Assembly: GCF_001938985.1 (NCBI RefSeq)
Contig: NZ_MKIN01000026.1
Span: forward strand, 62,001 to 126,000
DNA: 64,000 bases
Direction of reading: 5' to 3'
Origin: Gillisella taibaishanensis
Lineage (GTDB): Bacteria; Pseudomonadota; Alphaproteobacteria; Rhizobiales; Rhizobiaceae
Shown here: positions 2-27,677 of the stretch, in pieces
Layout: every line of letters begins with the position of its first letter
How positions within the stretch are numbered: the first letter of the stretch is position 1
The notes under the pieces: model-generated
What the model was told of the DNA's origin: nothing
Seen by the model: the letters and a program-made list of their open reading frames with translations, nothing else
Database searches by the model: none
Translations under genes and position numbers: made by a program

Positions 2-595
2 GACAATAACGAGGCGTGGTTCGAGCGCCTTTATCGTATTCTTATGCAGCGAGTCCTGCGCAGTTTGCCTAACTCAGAAAGCTCCGACGGCAAAACTGAA
101 TCGCTAACGCGCGGTCTGGTGCGCGACAAGGTCTTCAGTAGGTTCGTTGAATTGCTTTCAGCGGATCGAGCGTCGTATGTCGACAAACTCGACTATTTCG
201 AGGTGCGTTTCGACGGTGCTGTTGCTAGCCTTCGACGCGATGCGCAGGAACAGGCTTGGCGCGAGGAAAACCGCTCTCGGCCTCTCGAATATGACGAGAG
301 TGGCGAATTGTCTGCAGAGGTTGAGGCGGCGGCCGGAGTGCACGATCCTTTCGCCGGATCACATTTCGACGATCCGTCTTACCGGTTGCGTCTGGATGCG
401 GCGATTGACGCTCTACCGCCAGAACAAATCAGGATCATACACATGCTGAAAGAGGGCTTTCCCATAGACTCAAAGGAGCCAAACGTCATGACCATCGCTA
501 AGGCCTTGGGGCGCTCTGAAAAGACGATCCGGACTTATCGCGACAAAGCGATTGCAACATTGCGGTTGGCTCTGGCTGACGGTGAACAGCAATGA
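2..595 (+). CDS. Sigma-70 region-4-like regulator (5' partial)
   Basis: The reading frame is open to the left edge of the window, so the N-terminus is missing; the first ATG inside the window (44) is probably internal. The C-terminal 60 residues (from about DALPPEQIRIIHMLKEGF to KTIRTYRDKAIATLR) look like a sigma-70 region 4 helix-turn-helix: an acidic start, a small-residue turn (AKALGRSEKTI) and a basic recognition helix. The acidic middle part is unlike ordinary primary sigma factors. Its stop overlaps the next start (ATGA at 592-595), so the two genes are translationally coupled. I infer a sigma-like or region-4-only regulator heading the ubiquitin-like/helicase cluster. Ubiquitin-like operons that carry a sigma-like gene have been noted in comparative-genomics work, but I have not verified that link here. 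Confidence 0.6.
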   Translation, partial: DNNEAWFERLYRILMQRVLRSLPNSESSDGKTESLTRGLVRDKVFSRFVELLSADRASYVDKLDYFEVRFDGAVASLRRDAQEQAWREENRSRPLEYDESGELSAEVEAAAGVHDPFAGSHFDDPSYRLRLDAAIDALPPEQIRIIHMLKEGFPIDSKEPNVMTIAKALGRSEKTIRTYRDKAIATLRLALADGEQQ

Positions 596-1170
596 TCCCG
601 GCTGGCGAACGCCCCTCCCGTGAAGCCGTACTTGACGCATTCGCGGTCGAAAGCGAGCCAGATCGCTCAACCCTCGAGCGCTACCTGCGACTTTACCCAG
701 AATACTCTACTGAACTAATTGACCTTTCGCTCGAGCTAAGCCGTGAGATTTCAGAGGATGAGGCGCCCCTCTCCGTTGCGGATCAGGCGCTGATCGATGC
801 CGCGTGGTCGCAACATGCCAAGGCTTTGCCAGCGGCGGCGTCAGATCCTTTTGCGGCTCTGACAGCCGACGATTGGCGTACCGTCGCCCAACAACTGAAC
901 GTTCCGCGCCAGGTCATCACCGCGTTGCGTGAACGGCGCGCGTCGCTGCTTAGTATCCCGCAGCGGTTTCTCAAGAATCTTGCGACCGCAATGCACTGCT
1001 CGCTCACACAGCTCCAGCTGTCTTGGGGGACGGCTCCGTTGGTTGTGGCTCGCAGCTACAAGGCGGATGGCAAGCCGACCGCGGGTGAGCAGGTCACCTT
1101 CGAGAAGATTCTGATCGACGCCGGCGTTCCTGATGATAGGCGCGCCGAGCTTTTGGCAGAGGCGGACTGA
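592..1170 (+). CDS. Unknown protein coupled to the sigma-like gene
   Basis: This 192-residue soluble protein starts in an ATGA overlap with the sigma-like gene and stops 1 bp before the peptidase-helicase gene. No signal peptide or membrane segment is visible. The N-terminal third is acidic and helical (SEPDRSTLERYLRLYPEYS, ELIDLSLELSRE). Residues about 85-145 resemble an XRE-like helical DNA-binding fold (WRTVAQQLNVPRQVITALRE, then FLKNLATAMHCSLTQLQ). Position and coupling suggest a partner of the sigma-like protein, possibly an anti-sigma factor or a repressor cleaved by the downstream ImmA/IrrE-type peptidase, since ImmA proteases cut XRE-type repressors. That role is inference; I do not recognise a named family. 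Confidence 0.55.
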   Translation: MIPAGERPSREAVLDAFAVESEPDRSTLERYLRLYPEYSTELIDLSLELSREISEDEAPLSVADQALIDAAWSQHAKALPAAASDPFAALTADDWRTVAQQLNVPRQVITALRERRASLLSIPQRFLKNLATAMHCSLTQLQLSWGTAPLVVARSYKADGKPTAGEQVTFEKILIDAGVPDDRRAELLAEAD

Positions 1171-1171
1171 T

Positions 1172-4100
1172 ATGGACAGTGTGGAGCTTGCAAGGCAAGT
1201 CGCCGCCGAGCTTCACGCTCATCTGGTCGAATCCGGCGCCAATCCCTGGTCACCGTATGATTTCGTCGTCGCCGAGGCCGCGCGACGGGGGATCGACGTT
1301 GAGCCGACAGCCGCGGGTGCAGCTGTGCTCAACGGCGGTCGGGCAACCTTTATCGCTGCCGACGATCTGATCCTCCACGAGAATGTAGGCTCTCTATTCG
1401 AGAAAGCCTTCCTTGTTGCGCACGAGATTGGGCATGTCGAGCTTGGCGATGATCCGGATGATGAGCCTGCTCTGACTATCGATCCCGCCCGCGCCGCCGA
1501 ACCGTCGCCGGTCGGCATTGACCGCGTTGTCGACTACGGGCGCAAGCAACGGCGCGAAGTCCAGATGGATCTGTTCGCGAGAGAGCTGCTACTCCCTCGC
1601 AGCGTCGCGCGGGGCCTGCATCTAGATGGAGGGCTTTCTGCCTCGGAAATTGCCGCGAAGCTCGGTGCTCCGTTCGAGGTTGTGGCGCAACAGCTGTTTG
1701 ATGCCCTGTTGTTGCCGTCGACCCCGACCAAGCCGGTCGCGGCCCATGTAGAGCGGCCGTTAAATGCCTTGCAAGCAACAGCGGCGGCCCATCGCGGGGA
1801 GGCTTACCTGCTCGAAGCAGGTCCCGGCACCGGTAAGACGCAGACGTTGGTGGCACGCGTGGAGGGCCTTCTCGCAGACGGTGTCGATCCGAGGCGCATC
1901 CTGCTTCTGACGTTCTCGAATAAGGCTGCGGGCGAAATGGCCGAAAGGATCGCGCGCAAGAGGCCCGACGCAGCAGCTGCAATGTGGATCGGCACGTTTC
2001 ACGCCTTTGGCCTCGATATCATCCGTCGGTTCTATGCGGAGCTCGGCCTACAGAAAGATCCACGGATGATGGATCGAACTGAGGCAGTCGAACTCCTTGA
2101 GGAGGAGTTCCCGCGTCTGAGGCTCGCGCACTATCGCAACCTGTATGATCCCACCCAGATCATCTCCGACATGCTGGTTGCCATATCGAGAGCCAAGGAT
2201 GAGGTGGTCGACGCCGACACTTACGCCTCACTTGCTGGCGCCATGCTAACGAAGGCGACTGACGCCGAAACCCGCGAAGCGGCAGAGCGTGCCGTTGAAG
2301 TGGCTCGTGTCTACGCGACCTATGAGCAGCTCAAGCGCAACGCGTATTGCATCGACTTTGGTGACCTTGTCGCGCTGCCGGTGCAACTGCTCGAGAAGGA
2401 TGCGGCTATTCGCGCAACCCTCCAGGCGCAATATGACCATGTCCTGGTCGATGAATATCAGGACGTGAACCGCAGTAGTGTGAGATTGTTGAGCGCTCTA
2501 CGACCTGACGGTCGGAATCTCTGGGTGGTCGGCGACGCCAAGCAGTCCATCTATCGCTTCCGTGGCGCCTCGTCTTTCAACATGACCCGCTTCGGAAGGC
2601 AAGATTTTGCCGGCGGCAAGCGCGGTCGATTGAAACGCAACTATCGGTCGACGCAGGAGATCGTGACCAGTTTTTCCAACTTTGCTGTCACAATGCGAGC
2701 CGGTGACACCGACAGTGGTCTGGAGGCAGAGCGGGACGGCAATGGACATGGTCCAGAGTTGCGCATGGTCAAGCGTGCCGAAGTGCAGCAGGTCGCCTTA
2801 GCCGACGCGATCGAGGAACTCCGGCGCCAGGGCCACGCCTATCGCGATCAGGCGGTTCTGTGCACCGGCAACGAAAAGCTGTCGAGGATCGGTCAAGACC
2901 TCGAGCGGCTCGGTGTGCCGGTGCTATTTCTCGGCAGTCTGTTTGAGCGGAGTGAGGTCAAGGATCTCCTGGCCATCCTGTCAATCTTGGTCGACCGACG
3001 CGCCATGGGTTTGGTACGGGTCGCGTGCTGGCCGGATTTCGCGATGTCTTTCGCAGACGTGAGCGCGGTTTTCGAGCACCTGCGAGCCACAGACCCCGCT
3101 CCGGCAAGTTGGCTTCAGCACGTCGAGTCAATCCCAGACGTGAGTGTGGCTGGCCGCCAGGCACTCGGCAAGCTCTCAGCTGCTCTCGCAGGCTTCGACG
3201 CCGCCGCCTCACCCTGGACAATCCTCGCGAAGCTGCTCGTCGACCGCACGCCGATTGCAGCGCGTCTCGGGACATCGCCGGATCTTGGTGATCGCACACG
3301 CGGTATTGCGATCTGGCAGTTCCTCAACTTCGTGCGAGTACAGCCGTCCGGGCGCGGGCTACCTATCACGCGCCTTCTTGATCGGGTTCGCAGGCTTGTC
3401 CGCCTCGGCGACGATCGCGATCTACGTCAGTTGCCGGCAGCCGCTCAACATCTCGATGGGGTGCGGCTGATGACCATTCACGGCGCCAAGGGCCTGGAGT
3501 TCGAAGGCGTGCATATCCTAGGGCTCAACAGCGATACGATTCCACGCACGCCCCCTGCCCCGGCCTGTCCGGCGCCCCCAGGCATGATCACAGGTTCTGA
3601 AGGCAGCGTTCTAGAGGCATTCCGAGCGGGCCAGACTGAGGAACAGGAGTGCTTGTTCTATGTGGCGCTCTCGCGCGCTCGCGATCGCCTGTTTCTCTAC
3701 GCGCCGACACAGAAGAGCAACGGGAACAATCGGCCGCTCTCGCCATTTCTCGATCGGCTTGGGACCTTGATGCGCCGCTCGATCGTGCCGTCGCGGCCAC
3801 TTCCGGTGGCAGCCGAAGCTCGACCTGTTGAATTGATCATCGATGGGCGGCTTCGTTTCAGCGGACCGCAAATCGCACTTTATGAATCATGTCCCCGCCG
3901 CTTCCTCTACACGCACGTCCTTCAGGTCGGAGGACGTCGGACCGCGACCGCCTTTATGCAATTGCATGAGGCAGTTCGTATCGTGGTCGGGGCGGTGATC
4001 TCGTCCGGCCTGTCGATTTCCGAGCAGGACATGCAAAATCGTGCCGAAGCAGCGTTCGCCAGCCAGGGGCTCTCCGATCACGGCTATCGCGCCGAATTCC

Positions 4101-4570
4101 TTGACTTGGCCATGGCGATGCTACGCTTCTTCCTGTCCAGCCGCGCAGGAGCGGTCGCGGCCGTCCCCGCGGCTGTCAGTCTCATAATCGATGGGGAGGA
4201 GATCTTCGTCCAGCCGGATGAGGTGCTGATGCGACCCGATGGTGTCCGCGCCGTGCGCCGCGTCGGAACAGGGCACCTGCGGTCTACCGAGAGCAAGGAT
4301 GTCGGTGCGGCGGCGCTGATCCTCGCGGTTAAGCAGGCCTTTCCCGGCGCCGTTGCGGAACTGGTGCATCTCTCCGATGGCGAAGCACGTGCGCTGTCGT
4401 TGTCGGATCGCGAATTAACGGGCCGCAGGGACAAGCTCGCAAAGTTTCTAAGCGATATTCGCGCCGGGCGGTTTCCGGCTGATGTTTCACCATTCACCTG
4501 CCCGAACTGTCCGGCTTTCTTTATCTGCGGTCCGACCCCCGAAGGCCCACTCAAAAAAAAGTTTGCGTGA
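1172..4570 (+). CDS. ImmA/IrrE peptidase - UvrD helicase - AddB-type Fe-S domain fusion
   Basis: The 1132-residue protein combines three parts. Residues 1-185 form an ImmA/IrrE-like zinc peptidase: HEIGH at 84-88 and a second helix with E129 before FARELLLP. Residues about 190-850 form a UvrD/Rep superfamily 1 helicase: Walker A GPGTGKT 217-223, DEYQD 427-431, GDAKQSIYRFRGA about 454-466 and a late LFYVALSRARDRL motif. The C-terminus is an AddB/Cas4-like domain with four cysteines spaced for a 4Fe-4S cluster (C907, C1110, C1113, C1119). Where PD-(D/E)XK nucleases have D-x-K, this protein has AVRRVGTG, so cutting activity is doubtful. An ATG at 1133 would overlap the previous gene; 1172 follows its stop and fits better. 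The helicase presumably acts on DNA ends, and the peptidase may sense or process the upstream regulator. Confidence 0.85.
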   Translation: MDSVELARQVAAELHAHLVESGANPWSPYDFVVAEAARRGIDVEPTAAGAAVLNGGRATFIAADDLILHENVGSLFEKAFLVAHEIGHVELGDDPDDEPALTIDPARAAEPSPVGIDRVVDYGRKQRREVQMDLFARELLLPRSVARGLHLDGGLSASEIAAKLGAPFEVVAQQLFDALLLPSTPTKPVAAHVERPLNALQATAAAHRGEAYLLEAGPGTGKTQTLVARVEGLLADGVDPRRILLLTFSNKAAGEMAERIARKRPDAAAAMWIGTFHAFGLDIIRRFYAELGLQKDPRMMDRTEAVELLEEEFPRLRLAHYRNLYDPTQIISDMLVAISRAKDEVVDADTYASLAGAMLTKATDAETREAAERAVEVARVYATYEQLKRNAYCIDFGDLVALPVQLLEKDAAIRATLQAQYDHVLVDEYQDVNRSSVRLLSALRPDGRNLWVVGDAKQSIYRFRGASSFNMTRFGRQDFAGGKRGRLKRNYRSTQEIVTSFSNFAVTMRAGDTDSGLEAERDGNGHGPELRMVKRAEVQQVALADAIEELRRQGHAYRDQAVLCTGNEKLSRIGQDLERLGVPVLFLGSLFERSEVKDLLAILSILVDRRAMGLVRVACWPDFAMSFADVSAVFEHLRATDPAPASWLQHVESIPDVSVAGRQALGKLSAALAGFDAAASPWTILAKLLVDRTPIAARLGTSPDLGDRTRGIAIWQFLNFVRVQPSGRGLPITRLLDRVRRLVRLGDDRDLRQLPAAAQHLDGVRLMTIHGAKGLEFEGVHILGLNSDTIPRTPPAPACPAPPGMITGSEGSVLEAFRAGQTEEQECLFYVALSRARDRLFLYAPTQKSNGNNRPLSPFLDRLGTLMRRSIVPSRPLPVAAEARPVELIIDGRLRFSGPQIALYESCPRRFLYTHVLQVGGRRTATAFMQLHEAVRIVVGAVISSGLSISEQDMQNRAEAAFASQGLSDHGYRAEFLDLAMAMLRFFLSSRAGAVAAVPAAVSLIIDGEEIFVQPDEVLMRPDGVRAVRRVGTGHLRSTESKDVGAAALILAVKQAFPGAVAELVHLSDGEARALSLSDRELTGRRDKLAKFLSDIRAGRFPADVSPFTCPNCPAFFICGPTPEGPLKKKFA
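4555..4561 (+). other. A_AAA_AAG slippery heptamer before the stop codon
   Basis: A run of eight A residues followed by G gives A-AAA-AAG in the frame required for -1 slippage, three codons before the stop of the peptidase-helicase gene. Slippage would bypass the stop and read on into the start of the multiubiquitin gene. Whether it is used is unknown; the tract could simply encode the KKK tail. Confidence 0.3.
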
Positions 4571-4583
4571 CCTTACCGGTCGG

Positions 4584-4602
4584 CCAATCTCGCTCCGATT
4601 GG
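4584..4602 (+). repeat. Inverted repeat between helicase and multiubiquitin genes
   Basis: CCAATC and GATTGG form a perfect 6-bp stem with a 7-nt loop in the 81-bp gap. No U-rich run follows, so it is a poor intrinsic terminator. It could be an operator or an mRNA hairpin; no function is shown. Confidence 0.3.
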
Positions 4603-4651
4603 ATCTTTAGAGCCGCGGCGTCGCCACGGCGGAAATCTAAGGAACCAATCT

Positions 4652-5398
4652 ATGACTACAGAAGAACTTCTTGAATATGACGATGTCGGCGACGCTCTGC
4701 GCGAAGGCCGGCCGCTTCGTCCGGCGCGTGTTTATCGCTTCCTCCTCGCTGAGGGCGATCTCGCTTTTCAGCACCGTCAGGTGAGCGATCCCGTGCCGCT
4801 CGGCCGTCAGTTGCTCGAAGCCGCCGGACTCGATCCTCGGCAGGGTCACAGCCTTTTTGCGATTTTGTCTTCGGGCGATTTCGAGGATGTGCGTTTGAAC
4901 GAGCCTTTCGATCTGCGCGAGCGCGGCGCTGAGCGGTTCATTGCTTTTCAATCGGACCGCGATTTCAAGCTGACCCTCAATGACGACGAACTGCGTTGGG
5001 GCAAGCCGATCATCAGCGGCACGGTCCTCTATGGCCTGGCCAAGCGCGGCGACGGCGAGGCGATCTACCTCGAGGTCCCGGGTGGCGAAGACCGTTTGAT
5101 TGAACGGAATGAGCTTATCGATCTGACCGGCGCCGGGATTGAGCGTTTTATCACTGCGCCGATGACCTTTGAAATCATCGTCAATTCGCGGCCGCGCACG
5201 GTCGATGCTCGGACGGTCACGTTCGAACAGATCGTCCAGCTCGCCTTTCCGGGCCATCACCACCCGAATGTCGTGTTCTCGATGACCTACCGGCACGCGG
5301 CGTCAGCGCCGCATGCCGGGGAACTCGGGGCCGGCGGCTCTGTCGATGTCAAGAAGAAGGGCACGGTGTTTAATGTCACGCGCACTGTTCAATCGTAA
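4652..5398 (+). CDS. Multiubiquitin protein (three ubiquitin-like repeats)
   Basis: The 248 residues divide into a short leader and three beta-grasp-like units at about 25-100, 102-168 and 171-248. The last unit is a clear Multi_ubiq domain: TFEIIVNSRPRTV, FEQIVQLAFPG, VVFSMTYRHA and the terminal strand KKGTVFNVTRTVQS. The first two are divergent copies of the same pattern, each ending in an ERFI motif. There is no Gly-Gly tail; the protein ends VQS, as seen in multiubiquitin proteins of bacterial conjugation operons. It is predicted to be the modifier activated by the next gene's E1-like enzyme, with whose 5' end it overlaps by 26 bp. Processing of the repeats and the identity of targets cannot be read from sequence. 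Confidence 0.88.
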   Translation: MTTEELLEYDDVGDALREGRPLRPARVYRFLLAEGDLAFQHRQVSDPVPLGRQLLEAAGLDPRQGHSLFAILSSGDFEDVRLNEPFDLRERGAERFIAFQSDRDFKLTLNDDELRWGKPIISGTVLYGLAKRGDGEAIYLEVPGGEDRLIERNELIDLTGAGIERFITAPMTFEIIVNSRPRTVDARTVTFEQIVQLAFPGHHHPNVVFSMTYRHAASAPHAGELGAGGSVDVKKKGTVFNVTRTVQS

Positions 5399-6545
5399 TC
5401 CGGACCTCAAGCGGTTGCTGGACGAAGGCTACTTCGTCCAGCAACGGGGTGGCTACCTCGTTATGCGCGAGATCCCTTACGTCGATGAGCGTCAACAACT
5501 GCGCATCGGCACCTTGATCTCCAGTCTTACGCTGGCCGGGGATCAGACGCGCACACCTGACACGCATGTCGTCCACTGGGACGGTGATTTCCCATGCCAT
5601 GCCAATGGCGTTCGAATTCAGGGGATTTCGCACAGCAACGGCGCCTTCGACCTTGGTCACGGCCTGAAGGCGACGCACAGTTTCTCCAGCAAGCCGGAAG
5701 GTGGCTATACCGACTACCACCATAAGATGACGAGCTACGCGAACATCATTGCGGGCCCGGCGGCAGTGCTGAAGCCCGGCGTGACAGCTCATACTTTTCG
5801 TGAGCCCGAGCAGGAGGAAGAGAGCGTATTCAACTACGTCGAAACGGCCTCCGACCGCGTGGGTATCGGCCTGCTGACCGAGCGGCTCGTCAACGAGAAG
5901 ATTGCCATCATCGGGCTCGGCGGAACCGGCGGCTACGTTCTCGATCTGGTCGCCAAGACACCGGTTCGGGAAATCCGCCTGTTCGACAGCGACGAGTTCC
6001 TCACCCATAACGCGTTCCGCGCACCGGGTGCTCCGAGCCTCGAGGAACTGCGGGAAGCACCCAAGAAGGTTGAATACTTGAAGCGCATCTACAGCCGCAT
6101 GCACCGCAACGTCGTGGCACACGACACCGCTCTCGGCGCCGACAATCTCCACCTTCTCGACGGCATCACCTTCGCATTCCTCTCCCTCGACGCGGGGGAG
6201 GCGAAACGGTTGATCGTAGAGAAGCTCGAGGCGATCGGCGCCGCATTCATCGATGTCGGCATGGGTCTTGAGCTCGACGATGGATCTCTCGGCGGCATCC
6301 TGCGGGTCACCGCCAGCACGCCGGAGAAGCGAGACCACGCGCAGCAGCGCATCTCTTTTGTTGGCGGCGGCGCCAAGGACATCTACGCGTCCAACATCCA
6401 GGTCGCGGATCTCAACGCCCTGAATGCCGTTCTCGCGGTGGTGAAGTGGAAGAAGATCCGCGGGTTCTATCGCGACCTCGAGCGCGAGCATCACTGCACC
6501 TACACCACCGACGGCAACATGCTGATCAACGGAGACCTCGCGTGA
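5373..6545 (+). CDS. E1/ThiF-like activating enzyme with N-terminal DUF6791-like domain
   Basis: Residues about 172-390 of this 390-residue protein form a ThiF/E1 Rossmann adenylation domain: GLGGTGG at 181-187, then RLFDSDEFLTHNAFRAPGA carrying the metal/ATP aspartates. The first 165 residues match the extension I know as DUF6791 in ThiF proteins next to multiubiquitin genes. The start at 5373 is preceded by AAGAAGG and overlaps the multiubiquitin stop; an ATG at 5313 would overlap it much further. Only two cysteines exist: C75 in the N-terminal domain and C375 near the end. None lies in the region after the adenylation site where canonical E1 enzymes carry the thioester cysteine. It presumably adenylates the ubiquitin-like protein's C-terminus. 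Confidence 0.87.
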   Translation: MSRALFNRNPDLKRLLDEGYFVQQRGGYLVMREIPYVDERQQLRIGTLISSLTLAGDQTRTPDTHVVHWDGDFPCHANGVRIQGISHSNGAFDLGHGLKATHSFSSKPEGGYTDYHHKMTSYANIIAGPAAVLKPGVTAHTFREPEQEEESVFNYVETASDRVGIGLLTERLVNEKIAIIGLGGTGGYVLDLVAKTPVREIRLFDSDEFLTHNAFRAPGAPSLEELREAPKKVEYLKRIYSRMHRNVVAHDTALGADNLHLLDGITFAFLSLDAGEAKRLIVEKLEAIGAAFIDVGMGLELDDGSLGGILRVTASTPEKRDHAQQRISFVGGGAKDIYASNIQVADLNALNAVLAVVKWKKIRGFYRDLEREHHCTYTTDGNMLINGDLA

Positions 6546-6988
6546 TGCGGCACCACCTGCTCGAACATCGTTTCGTAGAACACATCCCTGAGCGCCTCCA
6601 GCCAGGCGTACTTTATGTTTCGATGGAATATGCGACATCGGCCCATAGTTGCTGCTGCGGCTGCGGAGAAGAGGTCGTCACGCCTTTCACACCGACGGAC
6701 TGGAAGATGACGTTCGACGGCGAGACAGTCTCGCTTCGCCCGTCGATCGGCAATTGGACGCTGAAGTGCCGGTCGCACTATGTGATCGACCGGGGCAAAG
6801 TGATCGAAGCCGGTCCCTGGAGTGAGGAGCAGGTCGAGGCCGAGCGTCGTCGCGATCGCGCGGCCAAGGCCCGTTATTATGGCCAGCCGCCAAAGGTCGC
6901 GCCTGCCGTTCAGCCCACTCCAGCGAAAGTACAGCACAGTCTCTGGCAGCGCCTCTGGGCGTGGATCTCGGGACGCCCCGCAAAATAA
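6545..6988 (+). CDS. DUF6527 Cys-rich protein of the ubiquitin-like module
   Basis: The start ATG shares one base with the E1-like stop (TGATG), so translation is coupled. The 147-residue protein has the DUF6527 hallmarks: HRFVEHIPERLQPGVLYVSMEY, the CCCGCG cluster at 36-41 with H34, TDWKMTFDGE, SIGNW, and CRSHY with C75 and H78. The Cys/His set suggests one or two bound metal ions in a treble-clef-like fold. The C-terminal 50 residues are basic and proline-rich, then end in a Trp-rich stretch (SLWQRLWAWISG). DUF6527 genes habitually follow multiubiquitin and ThiF genes. Ligase, adaptor or isopeptidase roles are all possible; I cannot choose between them from the sequence. Confidence 0.85.
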   Translation: MRHHLLEHRFVEHIPERLQPGVLYVSMEYATSAHSCCCGCGEEVVTPFTPTDWKMTFDGETVSLRPSIGNWTLKCRSHYVIDRGKVIEAGPWSEEQVEAERRRDRAAKARYYGQPPKVAPAVQPTPAKVQHSLWQRLWAWISGRPAK

Positions 6989-7005
6989 ACTTGTGAGTTA
7001 CATTT

Positions 7006-7026
7006 CCGCGCGAGCATATCGCGCGG
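7006..7026 (+). repeat. Perfect 8-bp inverted repeat after the ubiquitin-like module
   Basis: CCGCGCGA-GCATA-TCGCGCGG lies in the 169-bp gap before the AddB-like gene. The stem is strong but no U-tract follows, so it may be an attenuating hairpin, a mRNA-stability element or an operator. It marks a plausible boundary between the ubiquitin-like and nuclease-helicase genes. Confidence 0.4.
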
Positions 7027-7157
7027 GAGTGTACTTCGAAACATCACCGATACCTCATAGAAAGATGCAGTTCACTCTGCACTCCGAGAGAATCGTGCGT
7101 CTTCACGTAGGTCGTGCAAGGCGCCTCCGCGAGGATCAGCCCAGAAAGGAAAGCAGT

Positions 7158-9812
7158 ATGACCAACTCGAGCCGGGCAACACTTGTCGTTCATGGTCGCC
7201 TCGCTATGCGCCAAGCCCGCCTCGCTGCGGCCAGCGGCGCCTGCCACGGCCTTCAGATCATGTCCTTTGAGCAAGCCGCGGTGCGGCTTGCCGGGGGATT
7301 TGCACGGCCGATCGACGAAGAGAGCCTGCGCGCGGCGATCCAAGCGGTCCTCCCCAATACGCCCATGGGCGAGCTGGAAAGCATCAAGATGCTGCCCGGC
7401 ATGACCGGGGCAGCAGCGGACACACTGCACAAGGCTTGGCGCGCCGGCATCGATCTGCCTGCTCGGGCGGGTGAGCATCCGCGACTCGTAGCAATCGCCC
7501 GGCTGGAGACCGCTGTCCTGGAGCAACTTCCTGCCGGAATGATGCGCCCGGTCGACATCGTCACGACAGCTCTTAGCCGCATCGCCCATGCATCCGCGAT
7601 CTTCGGTAAAATCGAGATCGTCGGATTGACAGAGCTTTCTCCGTGTTGGCGTCCGCTGATCAAGCAACTGGCCGAACGCCTTCCCGTTCAGTGGACGGCC
7701 GGTCCACGCTCAGTCCCGGCCTGGCTGGCCGATAGCGGCGTCACTGTCGTGCAAAGCAAGGCTGAAGCGCCATCGGTTCGGTCTATCAGTGGTGCGACCG
7801 CGTATCACGAAGCCATAGAGGCCATGCGCTGGGCTCGCACCTTGCTCGCGTCGGGCATCTCACCGTCAGAAATCGCAATCGCGACGGCTTCGCCGGCGGA
7901 TTATGACGACCATTTCCTAGCGCTGCGCGCCGATGCCAACATCGACCTGCATTTCGTCCATGGCATCCGGGCGGTCGCGACACGCGAGGGACAGGCGGCT
8001 GCGGCACTAGCCGACATCGTTGTGCGCGGGCTCTCACAATCACGTCTGCGCCGCCTTGCCGCGCTGTGCCGAGAATCAGCGCCATTAGAGACCCTTCCCG
8101 ACGGCTGGCTAGGCGTTCTGCCGAGCGATGCACCCTTGTCGACGTCTGCCGCCTGGAACCGGCTCCTTTCGCGGCTCACGCCAAAGGACTGGCCCGATGG
8201 CAAAGATCACGCACCAACGTTGCGCAAAGCGATTGACCTATTGGCAAAGGGACCGGACGCCGCTCAGGAGATCGGCAATGCCTTCCTTAAAGGTCGGTCG
8301 TTGGCCATCTGGCGCAAAGCGCTGCTGGCCGGGCCTGCCGCATCTGTCGATGCCACGCTCGAGGCGTTGAAGCAGGATGACGGGCTCGAGGCTTGCGTTT
8401 CGGTTGCCTGGATGCCAGCAAGTGCGCTCGCGGCCTCACCCCGGCGCTTCGTTCGGCTGATCGGTCTCAACTCTTCTCGTTGGCCGCGCGGGATTGCCGA
8501 GGACCGGCTGATCCCGGACCACATCATCCCGACCGCCGAGCTCGACCCGCTTCCAGTCAGCCTCGCAGATCGCAGGGACTTCGAAACAATTATCGCGACT
8601 ACGTCCGGCGAAGTCGTCCTCTCTCGCGCCCGTCGCGACAGCGACGGTCGTCTCCTCGGACGCAGTCCATTGTTCGCTGCTCATGGCGACGAAACGTACC
8701 TGCGTCGCAACGCCATCCCCGAGCACGCCTTTAGCGAAACCGATCGATTGATGGCGCGACCGCAGGAATTCGCCGCCAACACCCAAGCGATCACTGCCCG
8801 CGATTGCTGGCGCGACTGGCGCGCGCCGGACATCACGCCCCATGACGGCCTCGTGCGGCCTGATCATCCGCTCATTCTCGCAATCCTCGCGCGGACCCAG
8901 TCGGCCAGTTCGCTGAAGACGCTGCTGCGCAGCCCGCTCGGTTTCCTTTGGCACTACGCCTTCGGCTGGCGCGCACCGCAGAGCAGCGCCGAGCCTCTAG
9001 TGCTCGATGGGCTCGCAGCGGGCGATCTGATCCACCTGGTGTTGGATCGCGCTTTGCGAACCCTCGAAGCGGCTGGCGGTCTGGCCTCCGCAGATGCGTC
9101 TGCGATTGAGAAAGCTGTCGCCGCGGCTGCGGATGCGGTCGCAATCGACTGGGAAAGTGAACGCCCGATCCCTCCTAAAGTTATCTGGGGCCGAACACTC
9201 GGTGACGTACGCCTTCTGACGGCGCAGGCCCTCGCTTATGGCGACGAGCATCTGCCGGCAAGCCGCTCCTATAGCGAAGTTCCCTTCGGCGGGTCCGAGC
9301 CTAAGTCGACGGCGGAGCTTCCCTGGGATGCGAGCTTGCCCGTCGTGATCCCGAACACGGGCTTTGAGATTGCGGGCTATATCGATCGGCTCGACATTGC
9401 CGGCGACGGAAGCCGGGCGCTCGTTCGCGATTACAAGACTGGCAAGCCTCCCAAAGGTGAAATCCGACTGAATGGCGGACGCGAGCTCCAACGCTGCCTC
9501 TACGCCTTCGCCGTGAAAGCGTTGTTGGGCGACCAGGTCGCGATCAGTGCGTCGTTGCTTTATCCGCGCGAACCGCTCGAAGTTCGGTTGGATGACCCGG
9601 AAGCCATGCTGGCTGAAATGACGCAGTATCTGCAGGCTGCTCGGAGCGCGTTTGCAAGTGGCGCCGCGCTGCCCGGTCCGGATACGGGCGGTGACTACGA
9701 CGACCTCGCATTCGCCCTGCCGGCCAATGCCAACGCAACATACTGCAAACGCAAGCAATCCGCCGCCACGGAGCGGCTTGGCGAAGTCGCTCAGGTGTGG
9801 GAGGCCGAATGA
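7158..9812 (+). CDS. AddB/RecB-like PD-(D/E)XK nuclease subunit
   Basis: At 884 residues the protein has an inactivated-helicase-like body, with no Walker A motif visible near the N-terminus, and a C-terminal PDDEXK_1 nuclease. The nuclease residues are intact: GYIDRLDI with D743, RDYKTG with D758 and K760, and QRCLYAF as the following helix. Unlike AddB of Bacillus, no Fe-S cysteine set is present. The start at 7158 follows AAAGGA by 7 bp; several upstream ATGs in frame would run back into the DUF6527 gene and are unlikely. It overlaps the AddA-like gene by ATGA, as expected for subunits of one complex. It should process double-strand ends, either as a private repair or anti-phage AddAB-type machine or together with the ubiquitin-like system. 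Confidence 0.8.
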   Translation: MTNSSRATLVVHGRLAMRQARLAAASGACHGLQIMSFEQAAVRLAGGFARPIDEESLRAAIQAVLPNTPMGELESIKMLPGMTGAAADTLHKAWRAGIDLPARAGEHPRLVAIARLETAVLEQLPAGMMRPVDIVTTALSRIAHASAIFGKIEIVGLTELSPCWRPLIKQLAERLPVQWTAGPRSVPAWLADSGVTVVQSKAEAPSVRSISGATAYHEAIEAMRWARTLLASGISPSEIAIATASPADYDDHFLALRADANIDLHFVHGIRAVATREGQAAAALADIVVRGLSQSRLRRLAALCRESAPLETLPDGWLGVLPSDAPLSTSAAWNRLLSRLTPKDWPDGKDHAPTLRKAIDLLAKGPDAAQEIGNAFLKGRSLAIWRKALLAGPAASVDATLEALKQDDGLEACVSVAWMPASALAASPRRFVRLIGLNSSRWPRGIAEDRLIPDHIIPTAELDPLPVSLADRRDFETIIATTSGEVVLSRARRDSDGRLLGRSPLFAAHGDETYLRRNAIPEHAFSETDRLMARPQEFAANTQAITARDCWRDWRAPDITPHDGLVRPDHPLILAILARTQSASSLKTLLRSPLGFLWHYAFGWRAPQSSAEPLVLDGLAAGDLIHLVLDRALRTLEAAGGLASADASAIEKAVAAAADAVAIDWESERPIPPKVIWGRTLGDVRLLTAQALAYGDEHLPASRSYSEVPFGGSEPKSTAELPWDASLPVVIPNTGFEIAGYIDRLDIAGDGSRALVRDYKTGKPPKGEIRLNGGRELQRCLYAFAVKALLGDQVAISASLLYPREPLEVRLDDPEAMLAEMTQYLQAARSAFASGAALPGPDTGGDYDDLAFALPANANATYCKRKQSAATERLGEVAQVWEAE

Positions 9813-12800
9813 TGACCATCATGCAAAAAATCCTCAAGGATGACCGTGCCCGGCGCGATGCCATTAGCGGTCACGAGCGCTCCATCCTGGTTGAGGCAGG
9901 TGCGGGTTCGGGCAAGACAGCGGTTATGGCCGGGCGCATTGCTGTCATGTTGGCACAGGGTGTTGCACCTCGCGCGATTGCGGCGGTCACCTTCACGGAA
10001 CTCGCGGCAAGCGAGCTCCTTTCCCGGGTTCGGGAGTTCGTCAGCGATCTTGCGGCGGGCAATATCGCACCAGAACTTCGGGTGGGGCTGCCAAACGGTC
10101 TGTCGCAGATGCAGCGTGACAATCTCATCGCCGCCAGCGCCGCGATCGACGACATCACATGTTCGACAATCCATGGGTTCTGTCAGCGTTTGATCAAACC
10201 CTATCCGGCAGAAGCAGACATCGATCCGGGCGCCACGGTCATGGACCGGAACCAGGCCGACCTCACCTTTCTCGAAATAGTGGACGGCTGGCTTCGGGAG
10301 AGCCTATCCGGCGACCAAGATGGCATCCTCGCCGAAATGGTTCTGCACAGCCCTGGCGAGACCGTGGCCCTGATGCACAGGGTCGCCGAAGCACTCCGCC
10401 GGCGCAGGAGCCTCATCACTCCGGCGGTGACACCGCTTGCCATGCATTTGGACGCCTTTCAGCAGGCGGCTGATGATTTCTCCGCCTTCATGCAGGCCGC
10501 TAGCGCCTGCGAGCCGGAGACGGAGGTTTATGCGGCACGCTTTTCCGAAATGGCTGCGCGCTTGCCCGCAGCGTCGAACGTGGAAACGCCGGCCGGATTA
10601 GTCGGGCTGCTGGTCTCGCGCCCACATCCCGACCTGTGCACCAAGGCTGGGGACTTCTCCTCCTATCGCAAGAAGGGCAAATGGGCGGCGGCGGCAAAAC
10701 AGGCCGGGCTTTCCAAAGCCGACGCCGACCGGTTGAATGATGCCGCAGAAGGCTTCTTTGACGCCTGCTGCGCTACGTGGACCGCCCTCCTTCAGGCTGC
10801 GTCCGGCCAGGTGCTCGCGGCGCTGATCGATGAAGCACGGCCGATGTTGGAGCGGTATCGAGAGCACAAGCGCGCCAGCGCCCAGTTCGATTTCGACGAC
10901 CTGATCTACGCCGCACGTGATCTGCTGCGCGATCATGAGGCGGTGCGACAGGCGCTCGGGCAACGGTACGCGAAGGTCCTCGTCGACGAGTTCCAGGATA
11001 CCGATCCGCTTCAGGCGGAAATCTTCTGGCGGCTGTGTGGTGACCCCATGGGGGATCCGCGAGATTGGGTCAGCTTCCGAATCCGGCCCGGCGCGCTCTT
11101 CCTCGTCGGAGATCCCAAACAGGCGATCTACCGTTTCCGCGGCGCGGACGTCCGCGCCTACGTCCAGGCGCGGACAGCCTTTTCAGGACAGGATGCGGAC
11201 GGCCTTGTGTCGATCTCGACCAATTTCCGGTCCTGCGCCTCGATCCTCACCTTCGTCAACGAGCGTTTCGAGGCAATCCTGTCGGCGGACGGACAGCCCG
11301 GCTTCACCGCACTCGATCCCTTCCATGACGATCGCGGCGGCGTCTGCGTCGCCGCGCTCGACATCGCTGTCGCCGACGAGAACGGCAAAGCCAGCGCGGA
11401 ACAGCAACGCGATGCCGAAGCCGATGCGGTCGCTGATCTGTGTGCCCGGTTGATCGGTAGCCATCCCGTTCTGGATCGCAAAGCCGGCGCGGAACGCGCC
11501 TGCCAGCCGGGCGACATCGCTCTTCTCGCACCGACCGGCGCAGATTTGTGGCGTTATGAGGAAGCGCTTGAACGGCACGGCATACCGGTGGCAACGCAGG
11601 CCGGTAAGGGTCTGTTTCGCCGGCAGGAGGTGCAGGATCTGATCGCACTGACCCGGGTGCTGGCCGATCGCCGTGACACTCTGGCCCTGGGGGCGCTGCT
11701 GCGCGGCCCGCTGGTCGGACTCAGCGAAGAACAGTTGCTGGACGTCGTCTGGGCGCTCCCGCGGTCTGACGAGGAACCTAACCGCATCCCTCGCCTCAAC
11801 CTTGGTGTCGACGCGGCGGCAATCAGTCATCCGCTGGCGCGCGATATAATCGAAAAGCTGCAGGCGCTCCAGCGACGCGGCAACAGCACCACACCGCACG
11901 AACTGCTTTCGCAGGCCGTGGATGTCCTGCGCTTGCGTCCCATTCTACTCGACCGCCATCGGGGTCAGGCCGAGCGGGCGCTCGCCAATGTCGACCTCTA
12001 TCTCAGCCTCTCAAACAGCTATGCGGTGCGCGGCCTCCGCGCCTTCTCCGAGGCGATGACAGCGGCCTGGACCGACGAGGCCCGGGCGGTTGAGGGACGA
12101 CCCGACGCGCAGGAGGAAGCCGTCGCGCTATTCACCATGCATGCCGCTAAAGGCCTCGAATGGCCGGTAGTAATCCCCATCAACACCATGACCGGCGTGA
12201 TGGCACCTGACAGCGCGGTGATTGACCGGCAGAATGACACTTTCTATTGCCCTGTTCTCGGTGTCCCGCCCTCTGGTTATGACACGGCGCGGCAAGCCGA
12301 GAAGGCCGAGTTGGACCGCGAACGTGTCCGTCTCTGGTATGTCGCTGCGACTCGGGCCCGTGAGCTGCTGATTCTGCCGCGCCTCGACGTAACGCCTTCG
12401 AAGTCTGCCTGGATCGGTCTTGTCGATCTATCACTCGCAGGACTCGTCGCGCTGGACACATCGCATTTATCGCCAGATCCGGTGGTGGTGGCCGGCGGCC
12501 ACGGCAACAGTCAGACGCGGGAGACTTTCGCCGCTGAGGCCGGCGCAATCGCCGATCGGCAGATGCGATTGAAATGGCTTGCTCCGAGCCGGGACGAGAA
12601 CTCAGCCGGAGCGCTCTTGCAAGAGGAGGACGCCGATATCTGGACCGGCTCGGATGATGATGCGCCGCCTGAGCTCGTCGCTTCCTCCACCGTGCAGGGT
12701 GGCCGCGAGCGCGGGCTCGTCCTTCATAAGCTTATGGAAGAAGTCCTGACCGGCGAAACGGACGACTCGCCCGCGGCGCTCTCTGCGCGAGCCGAGGAAC

Positions 12801-13204
12801 TCGTCCGTGCGCTTGGCAGGGTTCCGGTCCCCGACCCGACCGCCGGACTTTCCCCCGAGGAGTTGGCTGGTTGCATCGAACGGACCTTAGGGTTGCCCGA
12901 AATCGCAGCCTTACGGCCAGCACTGTCTGCGGAGTTTCCTGTTTATGCGCTTCGCGAGGAAGACGCTGAACTGGTCGCAACGGCGGGCATCGCCGATGCG
13001 CTGACGGTTGGTCCTGGGGGTCGGCCAGCGGTGGTCATCGATTGGAAAAGCGATGTGAATTCCGATCCCAGAACACTCGATCATTATCGGGCGCAGGTCC
13101 GCGCATATCTCGAAATGACGGGTGCAGAACAGGGACTGATCGTCCTGATGACGAGCGCGACGGTGATCGCGGTCAAGCCAAATGTCCCCTCCCCTCCATC
13201 GTAA
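9809..13204 (+). CDS. AddA-like UvrD helicase-nuclease
   Basis: The 1131-residue SF1 helicase has Walker A GAGSGKT at 31-37, AVTFTELAASEL (motif Ia), DDITCSTIHGFCQRL (Ib), KVLVDEFQDTDP (II), LVGDPKQAIYRFRGAD (III), TMHAAKGLEWPVV (V) and LWYVAATRARELL (VI). A C-terminal RecB-type nuclease ends the protein, with VVIDWKSD (D1078, K1080) followed by HYRAQVRAYLEM. This architecture is that of AddA. Chromosomal addAB in rhizobia is a housekeeping pair, so this second-looking set on a mobile element with defence-like neighbours suggests a specialised function. ATG 9809 is chosen because it forms the ATGA overlap with the AddB-like gene; an ATG at 9797 is an alternative. Confidence 0.85.
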   Translation: MMTIMQKILKDDRARRDAISGHERSILVEAGAGSGKTAVMAGRIAVMLAQGVAPRAIAAVTFTELAASELLSRVREFVSDLAAGNIAPELRVGLPNGLSQMQRDNLIAASAAIDDITCSTIHGFCQRLIKPYPAEADIDPGATVMDRNQADLTFLEIVDGWLRESLSGDQDGILAEMVLHSPGETVALMHRVAEALRRRRSLITPAVTPLAMHLDAFQQAADDFSAFMQAASACEPETEVYAARFSEMAARLPAASNVETPAGLVGLLVSRPHPDLCTKAGDFSSYRKKGKWAAAAKQAGLSKADADRLNDAAEGFFDACCATWTALLQAASGQVLAALIDEARPMLERYREHKRASAQFDFDDLIYAARDLLRDHEAVRQALGQRYAKVLVDEFQDTDPLQAEIFWRLCGDPMGDPRDWVSFRIRPGALFLVGDPKQAIYRFRGADVRAYVQARTAFSGQDADGLVSISTNFRSCASILTFVNERFEAILSADGQPGFTALDPFHDDRGGVCVAALDIAVADENGKASAEQQRDAEADAVADLCARLIGSHPVLDRKAGAERACQPGDIALLAPTGADLWRYEEALERHGIPVATQAGKGLFRRQEVQDLIALTRVLADRRDTLALGALLRGPLVGLSEEQLLDVVWALPRSDEEPNRIPRLNLGVDAAAISHPLARDIIEKLQALQRRGNSTTPHELLSQAVDVLRLRPILLDRHRGQAERALANVDLYLSLSNSYAVRGLRAFSEAMTAAWTDEARAVEGRPDAQEEAVALFTMHAAKGLEWPVVIPINTMTGVMAPDSAVIDRQNDTFYCPVLGVPPSGYDTARQAEKAELDRERVRLWYVAATRARELLILPRLDVTPSKSAWIGLVDLSLAGLVALDTSHLSPDPVVVAGGHGNSQTRETFAAEAGAIADRQMRLKWLAPSRDENSAGALLQEEDADIWTGSDDDAPPELVASSTVQGGRERGLVLHKLMEEVLTGETDDSPAALSARAEELVRALGRVPVPDPTAGLSPEELAGCIERTLGLPEIAALRPALSAEFPVYALREEDAELVATAGIADALTVGPGGRPAVVIDWKSDVNSDPRTLDHYRAQVRAYLEMTGAEQGLIVLMTSATVIAVKPNVPSPPS

Positions 13205-13320: not shown

Positions 13321-14487
13321 ATGTCCTATCTTGCCTGGATTGATTTCGACCCCGAGGAACGGCGACGCGCTCAAACGCTCATCGATCTCTTCAAACAACC
13401 TGAAGCCCGCGATGAATTAGGTTTGGGAACAGTGCGAGATGGCCTTGCCGATCTGCTTTTTCCGGGCACCAGTACGATCCAGACGCGGCTCCGCTATATG
13501 CTTTTTATTCCATGGATCTACCGAGAAGCGCAAAGTCGAAAGGCGACGCAAGCGGAGCGGACGAATGTTGCCCGGGACCTGGAATTCCGGTTGAGCGAAG
13601 CTCTGCTTCGGGGCGACGAGACGATCGGCGTGATCGGCCGGGATGCGGGCCGAAACCTCAAGCGGCTTGCCTCAAGCGTCTACTGGGCAGGTCTCAACAC
13701 CCTTGGCATACGCACACTGGCGGGTTCCCAAGCGACCTTCCTGTCCTATGGTCCCGAAAGCCTCAAGGACCACGATCTGAAATTGTGGGCATCAAGCCTG
13801 CCCAAAGCGCCCGGAGATTTGTTTGATGAGGCAACATTTGCGCTGACGGTGGAAGAAGCGGATTTCCTGCGAGATCGCATCGCCGGCAATGCAAAGCCAA
13901 CGCTGCTGAACGAGCTGGCACGCTCGGGTAAGTCTTACACTCAGGATTGGCCATGGCAGGTGAGCGAAAGCAGCATCTCGAAATCAAATCGCGCGATATT
14001 GCGACACGCAGAAAGGTTCTCCGGCGTGATGTATGGCGCCAGTCTGTTCTACAATCTTCTACTGGCGCTGCGTGCCGCTACGCGGCCAAATGCCAAAAAA
14101 CATGCAGATGCTCCAGCCCTCGTGGAGCACTATCGGTCGCGCCTTGAGGACTGGGTGGCGGAGCTCGAGCATCTCAATTTGAACGAGTGGGATCTCGATG
14201 ATCTTTTTAGCCTGATTGGCAAAACCAGCCATAGTCTGACCAAGTCGTCCCGCGACTTTATCCGCAGCTGGGCATCTATCGCGCGGGACGGCTCAGGCCA
14301 GTTGGAGACAGACAGTGCCGCGATCGAGCTTCTAAAGCACCGGGAACATGGCCTGAAGCGGTTGAAGGCGCGTCTGCTGCACGATGCGCCACTTGAGAGA
14401 TGGTCAGGTGCCTCTGGCGACGCCCGTCTCGATTTCAGATGGGGTATCTCGAGAAGCTATCTTGGGGAGCTCGCCGATGCCGGCTGA
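13321..14487 (+). CDS. DUF6361 family protein
   Basis: The 388-residue protein has the N-terminal signature I associate with DUF6361 (SYLAWIDFDPEERRRAQ, then RDELGLGTVRDGLADLLFPGTSTIQTRLRYMLFIPWIY). It is mostly helical and soluble, without catalytic motifs that I recognise. It lies 116 bp after the AddA-like gene and overlaps the PLD gene by 11 bp; the following helicase is ATGA-coupled, so these three form a unit. DUF6361 proteins occur with PLD-like and helicase proteins in accessory, defence-type loci. The biochemical role is unknown; a structural or target-recognition subunit is a guess. Confidence 0.7.
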   Translation: MSYLAWIDFDPEERRRAQTLIDLFKQPEARDELGLGTVRDGLADLLFPGTSTIQTRLRYMLFIPWIYREAQSRKATQAERTNVARDLEFRLSEALLRGDETIGVIGRDAGRNLKRLASSVYWAGLNTLGIRTLAGSQATFLSYGPESLKDHDLKLWASSLPKAPGDLFDEATFALTVEEADFLRDRIAGNAKPTLLNELARSGKSYTQDWPWQVSESSISKSNRAILRHAERFSGVMYGASLFYNLLLALRAATRPNAKKHADAPALVEHYRSRLEDWVAELEHLNLNEWDLDDLFSLIGKTSHSLTKSSRDFIRSWASIARDGSGQLETDSAAIELLKHREHGLKRLKARLLHDAPLERWSGASGDARLDFRWGISRSYLGELADAG

Positions 14488-19300: not shown

Positions 19301-19452
19301 ATCGACTTGCCTTCGGACAGCCCCGTCAAGATGAACTGATCAACCTTTTTTCCGCCTTCGGACCGGACGTCGTCGCGGAGCTCGCTGACCTGCAAATTTC
19401 ACTCAGGCCGGTGGGTGAAGCAAAGATATCGCCCAGCCCTACGGAAGGATGA
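16330..19452 (+). CDS. SF2 helicase partner of the PLD protein
   Basis: The 1040-residue protein has a DEAD/SNF2-type ATPase core: DEVGLGKT at 41-48, LIILDEFQRF for motif II, LLLLSATPYRM for motif III, and in the C-terminal lobe STSIGQEGLDFH and DIEQREGRVHRF for motifs V and VI. A long insert of roughly 400 residues separates the two lobes. The architecture resembles DISARM-type or other PLD-associated helicases. Start 16330 forms an ATGA overlap with the PLD gene. I infer that it translocates on DNA and delivers or activates the PLD subunit. It is the last gene of the + strand cluster and converges on the trb operon. Confidence 0.82.
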   Translation: MTYQAEEHLKLLKPFQRATVNYVFRRLFTDALPTGQFLVADEVGLGKTMVARGVIAKAIEELTGKVDRIDVVYICSNQAIAEQNIKSLNVIGSATKPLNTRLTLLPLEIEQEGGIASQPVNLISLTPGTALDLKSSLGTAKERVLIYEMLRKRLGIRHSGVQRVFRGGVDKENWPGWTDWIRYQKISEQISKNFNAAVGDEFVERIRAAAELARSKKNPNYPPDQRPPAMIGELRRVLARTCVDALTPDLIILDEFQRFADLLHEHDEQLAPEKAAAAELARALFSYSGGDGSKARLLLLSATPYRMLTLNSDDPEDGDHYSDFLRTMRFLFGAEAGDARIKELETELINFRRALQAMPETSVQARVRRDRVQHILGEVIARTERVDSSDDRNALVKESKPQLRIETDDLREAKVIAQVAALVGAPGIVEYWKSAPYLLNFMRDYKLRQKLQAVKLRPSSELRHAIKAATPFLISKEQVEGYEEIPLRNARMRVMADMAFQHGLDRALWVPPSRPSYGAQIPAAKSLIFSDWSMVPDAIAALLSHEASRRMGMTTDLVSRTSRPIGIEEMMPMLCPSPTLAAWVDPLALERRFGRASSYDDLHLQAVQVLTERIDKKRLLRLAERSDRLLPLTLEEGLGTGVDWGRVGAIEHEGHDEHGAMARAIEVIGNALEAEDHLDDGDVKETCDKLAEFALGSPATCALRALGRLCPELPLNDPALVGAAMAIALGFRSLYNQPESRALLAEASPLNYWRQVNSHAARHDLAAVLDEYLQLVVDAEHAAELHAGQRAALIANKVVEVVALRPAQITLDHWTAGRSRLHDKTFEVRARFAMRFATKAEDEKGVRRTTLVQAAFKSPFRPFVLASTSIGQEGLDFHPYCARIVHWNLPRNPVDIEQREGRVHRFKNHAVRRNIAAKLGEFAICGDARVAPWESMFEAARQHEIAQGRPGDIVPYWLYPGDTKIERVVLIPPFSREVERFENLKKSLATYRLAFGQPRQDELINLFSAFGPDVVAELADLQISLRPVGEAKISPSPTEG

Positions 19453-19534: not shown

Positions 19535-19789
19535 TCATATGGCGGAATTACTGTCCTTCCGCGGCAGAGGGTGATTTCGCTTCGCCTTCCCAAAGTCTCG
19601 GTCACTCGCCATAAACTTCTGGATCATCGGCGCGATTAGTTTCACCGGCTCCGGTGGTGTAGCCTCCCCATTCGCCCTTGCAAGAATAACTGCATAGGCC
19701 TGCAAATCCTGAAACACCGCAGCCGGCAGTTCGACGGTGATCTTCACGGGCCTGTCGTCCGGAATAGCGGAAAGCTTCAGCTTGGTCAT
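19535..19789 (-). CDS. DUF2274 protein at the end of the trb operon
   Basis: This 84-residue protein (MTKLKLSAIPDDRPVKITVELP, then AYAVILARANGE and KLIAPMIQKFMASDR) is the DUF2274 product that usually follows trbI in alphaproteobacterial Trb operons. Its start overlaps the trbI stop by ATGA. It looks like a small ribbon-helix-helix-type or coiled protein with a basic tail. Its role in transfer is not established to my knowledge. Confidence 0.85.
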   Translation of the reverse strand: MTKLKLSAIPDDRPVKITVELPAAVFQDLQAYAVILARANGEATPPEPVKLIAPMIQKFMASDRDFGKAKRNHPLPRKDSNSAI

Positions 19790-24386: not shown

Positions 24387-24399
24387 GGGTCCAAAGCTC

Positions 24400-27668: not shown

Positions 27669-27677
27669 GATCGACCC

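Follow-up and report, generated by a model that had tools for sequence, protein, structure and literature searches.

A probable Bub-like ubiquitin-conjugation cassette in Gillisella taibaishanensis with a candidate sigma-like, helicase-peptidase controller and a promoter-like element of its own

A ubiquitin-like (Ubl) conjugation module lies at the start of a 64,000-nucleotide stretch of DNA from the alphaproteobacterium Gillisella taibaishanensis (contig NZ_MKIN01000026.1, positions 62,001 to 126,000 of the forward strand), the whole of which is referred to here as the window; L and G numbers are our labels for loci and genomes. The module consists of a multiubiquitin gene, an E1 gene and a DUF6527 gene, and it is preceded by genes for a sigma-like protein (sig), a helix-turn-helix (HTH)-like protein (hth) and a fusion of an ImmA-type peptidase with a UvrD helicase (immA-uvrD). 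Sequence comparison across loci indicates that these six co-directional genes are a conserved cassette, which carries two copies, P1 and P2, of a promoter-like element. Its features are as follows.

2-595, plus strand: sig, sigma-70-like regulator, 3' part only (Sigma70_r4_2 in the family; 56 of 59 loci)
379-406, plus strand: P1, promoter-like TTACCGG-N16-CGATT within sig, 5' of hth and immA-uvrD (exact match)
592-1170, plus strand: hth, 192-residue HTH-like protein, candidate peptidase substrate (repressor or anti-sigma; 56 of 59 loci)
1172-4570, plus strand: immA-uvrD, M78 (ImmA/IrrE) metallopeptidase, UvrD helicase and iron-sulphur (FeS) PD-(D/E)XK-like domain lacking DxK
4573-4600, plus strand: P2, promoter-like TTACCGG-N16-CGATT, 5' of multiubiquitin (55 of 55 scorable loci)
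4597-4651, plus strand: stem-loop 3' of P2 (RNA fold z -2.5)
4652-5398, plus strand: multiubiquitin (BubA-like), three beta-grasp domains (three PF14452 matches, 6e-57)
5373-6545, plus strand: probable E2-E1 fusion, DUF6791 (5373-5807) and ThiF E1 (BubC-like) (PF20590 1.8e-59, ThiF 1.4e-8)
6545-6988, plus strand: DUF6527, predicted metal-binding protein (PF20137 1.3e-24)

The genes are closely packed, with an ATGA junction at sig/hth, a single base between hth and immA-uvrD (ATG at 1172), and overlaps at multiubiquitin/E1 and at E1/DUF6527 (TGATG, start 6545), so that the 81 bases from immA-uvrD to multiubiquitin are the sole real gap within the six. A first-pass annotation, made from the letters of the sequence alone, had listed genes that were all found on the plus strand roughly where it had placed them. 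Its gene list nevertheless missed the HTH-like gene at 592-1170, placed the E1 start at 5313 instead of 5373, and took in a sig gene that the window edge truncates: the full frame codes for 283 residues and begins 257 bases before the window (L005:1744-2595).

The linkage of these genes was assessed in 65 loci retrieved by scanning genome contigs with the E1 protein, 59 of which have at least 4.2 kb upstream. This is one scan with a close query, in which the window's clade is over-represented and many loci are near-identical, and at 97 percent identity the 65 loci collapse to 41 clusters. ImmA-UvrD is present in 58 of the 59 loci, sig and HTH each in 56, and the same six-gene order is kept in 56; after redundancy reduction, ImmA-UvrD is present in 36 of the 37 E1 clusters with room upstream. 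DUF6527 is found in all 63 loci with room for it. Three loci lack sig: L065 has a different neighbourhood, and L028 and L032 have a broken or chimeric ImmA-UvrD. The reverse test gave the same picture, because among 289 alphaproteobacterial genomes a full-length ImmA-UvrD occurs in three, each time with multiubiquitin directly 3', and sig occurs in the same three genomes plus one weak match of 58 residues. The pairwise distances of the six proteins, compared among 26 representatives, correlate with r of 0.90-0.98, and none of 300 permutations reached as high a value for any pair. Shared descent of the whole cassette suffices to explain such a correlation, which by sequence comparison shows that the six proteins move as a unit. 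The coupling of the Ubl module to the sigma-like gene and ImmA-UvrD, which the first-pass annotation had pointed out, thus goes far beyond chance. In the Mesorhizobium locus L028 (3965-9253), the N-terminal two thirds of ImmA-UvrD have been swapped in frame for another helicase-like gene, and this copy is probably recombinant and dead.

The cassette has spread among Proteobacteria, Planctomycetes and others. Its E1 is encoded on 115 plasmid records and the cassette is also found on conjugative elements; the E1 query had no match in phage records, and viral contigs hold two partial sig relatives. On the conjugative Klebsiella plasmid CP120875.1 (L127), the six-gene cassette adjoins Tn7-like transposition genes. 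Escherichia coli has a version as well, in strain CP61_Sichuan (L162). A 4-kb contig of a Kiritimatiellae metagenome-assembled genome (L012) encodes an E1 that is 89 percent identical to rhizobial ones, and may reflect binning contamination.

The 81-base gap before multiubiquitin is strikingly conserved, and across 20 diverse loci no column of it is invariant apart from those of TTACCG and GATT, which stand at a fixed distance. The P2 element is present with at most one mismatch in all 55 scorable cassette loci, and the eight Ub-like loci without sig have at least three mismatches to it. P1 lies at a fixed place inside sig, where it is exact in 47 of 56 loci and has one mismatch in seven more. 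The amino acids encoded there, YR and AI, could by themselves dictate some of the bases, yet the codons are frozen too (TAC 49/49, CGG 48/49, GCG 50/50, ATT 49/49); mean codon identity over 96 conserved sig columns is 0.65, and the only three columns to reach 1.00 are all within P1. Besides these two elements there is no exact copy in the 5.4-Mb genome of the window, for which simple counting gives a chance expectation of about 0.65, and sites with one mismatch are no commoner there than for the reversed pattern. In genomes G266 and G513 the two copies in the cassette are likewise the only exact ones, and in Acinetobacter the same variant, TTACCGA, occurs at both P1 and P2.

A third copy of the element was found in the planctomycete loci L042 and L045, 3' of DUF6527 and 5' of genes for an HNH-SAVED effector, a CD-NTase and an E2, which together are an operon of the cyclic-oligonucleotide-based antiphage signalling system (CBASS). 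In L042 this copy is nearly identical to the locus's own P2 over 29 bases, and none would be expected by chance. The third copy, seen in these two related loci, is the strongest sign that Sig may serve immune operons. Because the element is bipartite and asymmetric, has a fixed spacing, and stands before genes that travel with a sigma-like protein, it is best read as the promoter of the cassette's own sigma factor.

A further feature of the gap is a stem-loop, which in the alphaproteobacteria, the clade of the window, is predicted to pair the Shine-Dalgarno sequence (AAGGA) of multiubiquitin; distant loci have predicted hairpins of other sequence at the same place after P2. Covariation in the stem-loop is modest and above that of shuffled sequences, although by some measures slid controls are nearly as high. 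As a minor point, the hairpin may link translation to the promoter.

The three proteins encoded upstream of the module differ in how readily they are recognised. The Sigma70_r4_2 family matches 20 of 24 aligned members of the sig family (best 1.1e-6), with the window's own protein under the cut-off, and PDB profile searches with Sig, HTH and DUF6527 found nothing. ImmA-UvrD has matches to Peptidase_M78 (4.1e-14), UvrD-helicase (5e-63) and PDDEXK_1 (3.1e-6), and across 54 aligned copies it keeps the HExxH motif, the downstream glutamate, the four FeS cysteines and the helicase motifs. In the nuclease-like domain, the (D/E)xK motif is replaced by an RR-x-x-TG type in 54 of 54 copies, and it is likewise replaced in the distant loci L153-L156. 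An active nuclease in ImmA-UvrD is rejected on this motif loss, as judged from the alignment, and the FeS nuclease-like domain is probably a sensor. The locus had been thought to pair two active helicase-nuclease machines with the Ubl module, which the state of this domain does not support. Sensing DNA and signalling by proteolysis would be a fitting role for a motor joined to a peptidase and an apparently inactive nuclease, and, since HTH and ImmA-UvrD are always adjacent, HTH is the obvious candidate substrate. The earlier suggestion of a peptidase-controlled regulator is still the best reading, by analogy with the CapH+CapP arrangement, in which an M78 peptidase is encoded next to an HTH protein.

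This apparent controller is also found beyond the clade of the window. Locus L111, with a helicase that is 48 percent identical, encodes sig, HTH, ImmA-UvrD, multiubiquitin, a JAB-ThiF E1 and DUF6527. Distant plasmid-borne sig relatives (27-34 percent identity) in L153-L156 also lead a run of sig, HTH and helicase genes. In L153 these genes are followed by multiubiquitin, JAB-E1 and DUF6527, and P1 and P2 are both exact; in L154-L156 they are followed by genes for a 169-residue protein, a DUF7665 protein that by eye looks E2-like, a JAB protein and an E1-sized protein, and P2 has drifted to TTTCCGG or similar. The E1-sized protein has no Pfam match in L154, is annotated as ThiF in L155 and has a weak ThiF match in L156. 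Judging from these gene orders, the controller stays while the Ub-like operon changes, from DUF6791-E1 to JAB-E1 to the four-gene Ubl/DUF7665/JAB/E1 form. Operons with an E1 of the same family and without ImmA-UvrD have other genes upstream: M78 with HTH (L118, L114), M78 (L112), or HATPase with a winged HTH (L119). Among 544 Bub operons, 219 have CapW or CapH+CapP and 59 have CapK+CapS, all DNA-damage-responsive controllers (PMC13373217), and by gene order the present controller occupies the same position as CapH+CapP or CapK+CapS beside such operons. In L155, genes with WYL and WGR domains (7708-8761) are directly 5' of the distant sig homologue, and two controllers may stand side by side there.

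Within the conjugation module, the three PF14452 domains of multiubiquitin are accompanied by PDB profile matches to BubA-like Ubl structures (9cd2, 2.4e-27; 9d59, 5.4e-21), and its C-terminal tail, FNVTRTVQS, is conserved and has no Gly-Gly. Members of the E1 family carry either a JAB or a DUF6791 domain at the N-terminus, and the window's protein is of the second type. Modelled alone with AlphaFold2, the DUF6791 part has a mean predicted local distance difference test score (pLDDT) of 90.8, and the best structural match of the model is Citrobacter BubB (9eae_C, Z 8.8, root-mean-square deviation 3.6, 119 of 128 residues); the other leading matches are E2 or ubiquitin E2 variant (UEV) domains with Z of 4-6, and Foldseek alone gave nothing significant with this model. 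The evidence that DUF6791 is E2-like, closest to BubB, is good but not conclusive. The only invariant cysteine in the E1 family, C75, is in the DUF6791 part, and in the model it would come after strand four of the sheet, the location of E2 active sites, although no superposition underlies this placement. For the ThiF half, BubCD is the best PDB profile match (3.4e-5), with a fold match of Z 16.5, and the AlphaFold2 model of the full E1 has a pLDDT of 69.5 and is poor outside DUF6791 and the core. On the strength of these models, the window's E1 protein is probably a fusion of E2 and E1 that lacks JAB, making it a Bub-like variant. DUF6527 has an invariant H35 and invariant CCCxC and CxSH motifs, and the RefSeq name of its aligned E. 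coli orthologue is ubiquitination-like system serine protease.

The genes that follow the cassette in the window belong to other modules.

7158-9812, plus strand: AddB-like PD-(D/E)XK nuclease, accessory (PDDEXK_1 3.2e-18)
9809-13204, plus strand: AddA-like UvrD helicase-nuclease, accessory (TIGR02784 2.3e-81, far under cut-off)
13321-19452, plus strand: Azaca genes zacA, zacB and zacC, neighbour outside the core (PADLOC: ZacA 4.5e-119, ZacB 1.6e-160, ZacC E=0)

The AddB and AddA genes overlap at an ATGA (start 9809), and both proteins have intact nuclease motifs (DYKTG in AddB, DWKSD in AddA). AddA scores 274.6 bits against TIGR02784, for which the cut-off is 860.75, and by sequence the two are an AddAB-like pair rather than housekeeping AddAB. 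The first-pass annotation had been right to link a peptidase-helicase and a sigma-like gene to the Ub-like module, but it had counted the AddAB-like pair as part of the system, and the actual unit is smaller: homologous loci have sig, HTH and ImmA-UvrD in nearly all cases and the AddB/AddA pair in 11 of 63. AddB relatives occur in eight of the 289 alphaproteobacterial genomes, with AddA alongside in all eight, and in six of these the sequence seen has the pair separate from every multiubiquitin locus, or at least 11 kb off; it is close only in the window and in G004. The cassette element has no copy at AddAB. Linkage, occurrence elsewhere and the missing element together weigh strongly against AddAB as a member of the cassette.

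PADLOC assigns Azaca because ZacA, ZacB and ZacC are all present. The five-gene unit AddB-AddA-ZacABC occurs without the window's controller in L130 and L135 and with it in L006, L064 and L129, a recurrence that suggests an AddAB-containing form of Azaca. To judge from these gene neighbourhoods, AddAB forms a separate module, whether or not Azaca accompanies it, and recurrently settles beside Ub-like operons. L113, from the same region as L135, has AddB-AddA-ZacABC 5' of multiubiquitin, DUF6791-E1 and DUF6527, an order opposite to that in the window, and has none of sig, HTH and ImmA-UvrD. Other neighbours are a 1359-residue Eco57I-type restriction-modification methylase on the opposite strand 5' of the cassette (L004 14350-18429) and a minus-strand run at 19786-29361 of the window that by eye resembles a trb conjugation cluster (TrbI, TrbL, TrbE, TrbB). 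In L007 (12187-15291) and near-identical loci, a caspase-domain/DEAD-box helicase fusion is encoded just 3' of the cassette (PADLOC: caspase, HamB-like), and in L034 (11761-14775) a 1004-residue protein with a RelA/SpoT domain is encoded 3' of it.

We propose, with a probability of roughly 0.6, that the locus is a mobile, self-regulated, Bub-like ubiquitin-conjugation cassette in which ImmA-UvrD senses DNA and inactivates HTH, and Sig switches on the module. HTH would keep the system silent, either by acting as a repressor or by restraining Sig. The UvrD motor and the nuclease-dead FeS domain would load on DNA ends or single-stranded DNA arising from damage or phage, and loading would activate the fused ImmA peptidase, leading to cleavage of HTH. 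Sig would then fire P1, giving more HTH and ImmA-UvrD as feedback, and P2, giving the Ubl protein, the E2-E1 enzyme for its attachment to targets, and DUF6527 for its processing or removal. In this view the defence island also holds AddB/AddA and Azaca as independent neighbours. It is an even bet that, more broadly, Sig is a dedicated, element-encoded immune sigma factor, released by a metallopeptidase that is coupled to a helicase and responds to the state of DNA, and switching on Ubl conjugation and, in some bacteria, CBASS through one private promoter.

Several observations weigh against this model. Sigma region 2, which would bind a -10 element, has no Pfam match in the sig family, and the HTH family is barely recognised as such, with weak Cro/C1 and Xre-like matches in two of 22 members; its cleavage by ImmA-UvrD is a guess from the analogy with CapH+CapP. 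P1 sits within coding sequence. The Ubl ends in QS and not GG, which makes the conjugation chemistry less certain, and no conserved catalytic cysteine was found in the alignment of the ThiF half. Finally, phage protection is undemonstrated even for canonical Bub operons (PMC13373217). This last point equally favours a tentative alternative, less probable than our model, that the cassette mounts a general DNA-damage or mobile-element maintenance response, triggered by damage to or transfer of host or element DNA rather than by phage. Carriage on plasmids and conjugative elements would suit such a role, and the inferred sensor would register any DNA damage; however, the same element precedes a CBASS operon in Planctomycetes, and many loci lie among defence genes (Azaca, an AbiEii-type gene, the caspase-helicase).

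It is formally conceivable, if unlikely, that TTACCGG-N16-CGATT is an operator for HTH or another factor and not a Sig promoter, given that hth is encoded beside the element and that repressors often bind at promoters. The spacing of 16 bases held in nearly all loci, together with the two-part and asymmetric form, is closer to a -35/-10 pair than to a site for a repressor dimer. We consider it more doubtful still that ImmA-UvrD and the AddAB-like helicase-nucleases belong together in a single system as its effectors or as targets of conjugation, as had first been suggested. The genes are co-directional in the window, the nuclease motifs of AddB and AddA are intact, and AddAB is found 3' of the module in 11 loci, also in a pTi plasmid of Agrobacterium, and near other Ub-like operons in L112 and L113; against this, 52 of 63 loci have no AddAB, the pair also exists where there is no module, it lacks the cassette element, and it would be joined by an ImmA-UvrD whose nuclease domain looks dead. 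That unrelated genes have merely gathered in a defence island by chance is very improbable, even though unrelated systems (Azaca, the methylase upstream) are present in the region, because the order is fixed in dozens of loci across several phyla, the proteins co-evolve, and the element is shared and private. Our preferred reading is still that of a self-regulated conjugation cassette.

Bub operons are known conjugation machines. In the present cassette the candidate trigger moves together with the module, and every base of the element is specified, so that both the input, the activation of ImmA-UvrD, and the output, the targets of Sig, become addressable. Genomes can also be searched for the element itself to reveal more immune operons that share this control, of which CBASS is an example, and the probable E2-E1 fusion offers a compact Bub variant for biochemistry. 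The combination of this controller with a private element appears to be undescribed in the literature examined, which did not cover the primary Bub papers.

The cassette resembles the Citrobacter BubCD-BubB-BubA operon (PDB 9ea4, 9eae, 9eav) in its multi-domain Ubl, BubC-like E1, BubB-like E2 domain and upstream controller genes. It differs in that the BubB-like and BubC-like parts are one protein and in that the controller is composed of sig, HTH and ImmA-UvrD. The JAB part of BubCD (BubD) is absent from the window's E1 and present in the sister cassettes L111 and L153, and for want of JAB on that E1 we class the system as a Bub-like variant and not as canonical Bub. With operon type 6e of Iyer et al. 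2006 (PMC1779556), it shares a polyUbl, of two to three tandem Ub-like domains in that type and of three in the window, an E1 with an N-terminal 'domain X' in place of JAB, and a predicted metal-binding protein; UvrD, RecB and a sigma factor are unmentioned in the searched text of that paper. The signature of the type 6e metal-binding protein, C-x(3)-C-x(35-38)-H-x(2)-C (PMC1779556), is similar to the CCCxC and CxSH of DUF6527, with spacing that is not exact in a comparison that was not made residue by residue. From its position, DUF6791 would be 'domain X', which was guessed to be JAB-like (PMC1779556), whereas the model of the window's DUF6791 is E2-like; the fold search favours E2 and no JAB match was seen, and a JAB-like nature is the less likely reading. 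CBASS Cap2 likewise has an E2-like domain fused before E1, and its structures 7to3 and 7tqd are among the structural matches, but the window sequence is nearer to Bub than to Cap2 and its cassette has no cyclase.

The closest counterparts of the controller are CapH+CapP and CapK+CapS, in which an HTH-like protein with an M78-type peptidase, or another DNA-damage controller, is encoded directly 5' of Bub or CBASS operons (PMC13373217). CapH+CapP is an HTH repressor with a peptidase activated by single-stranded DNA, forming a DNA-damage-activated controller of immune operons (PMC13373217). In the cassette described here, by contrast, a UvrD helicase and an apparently inactive FeS nuclease domain form one protein with the peptidase, and a sigma-like factor with a putative promoter element of its own has been added.

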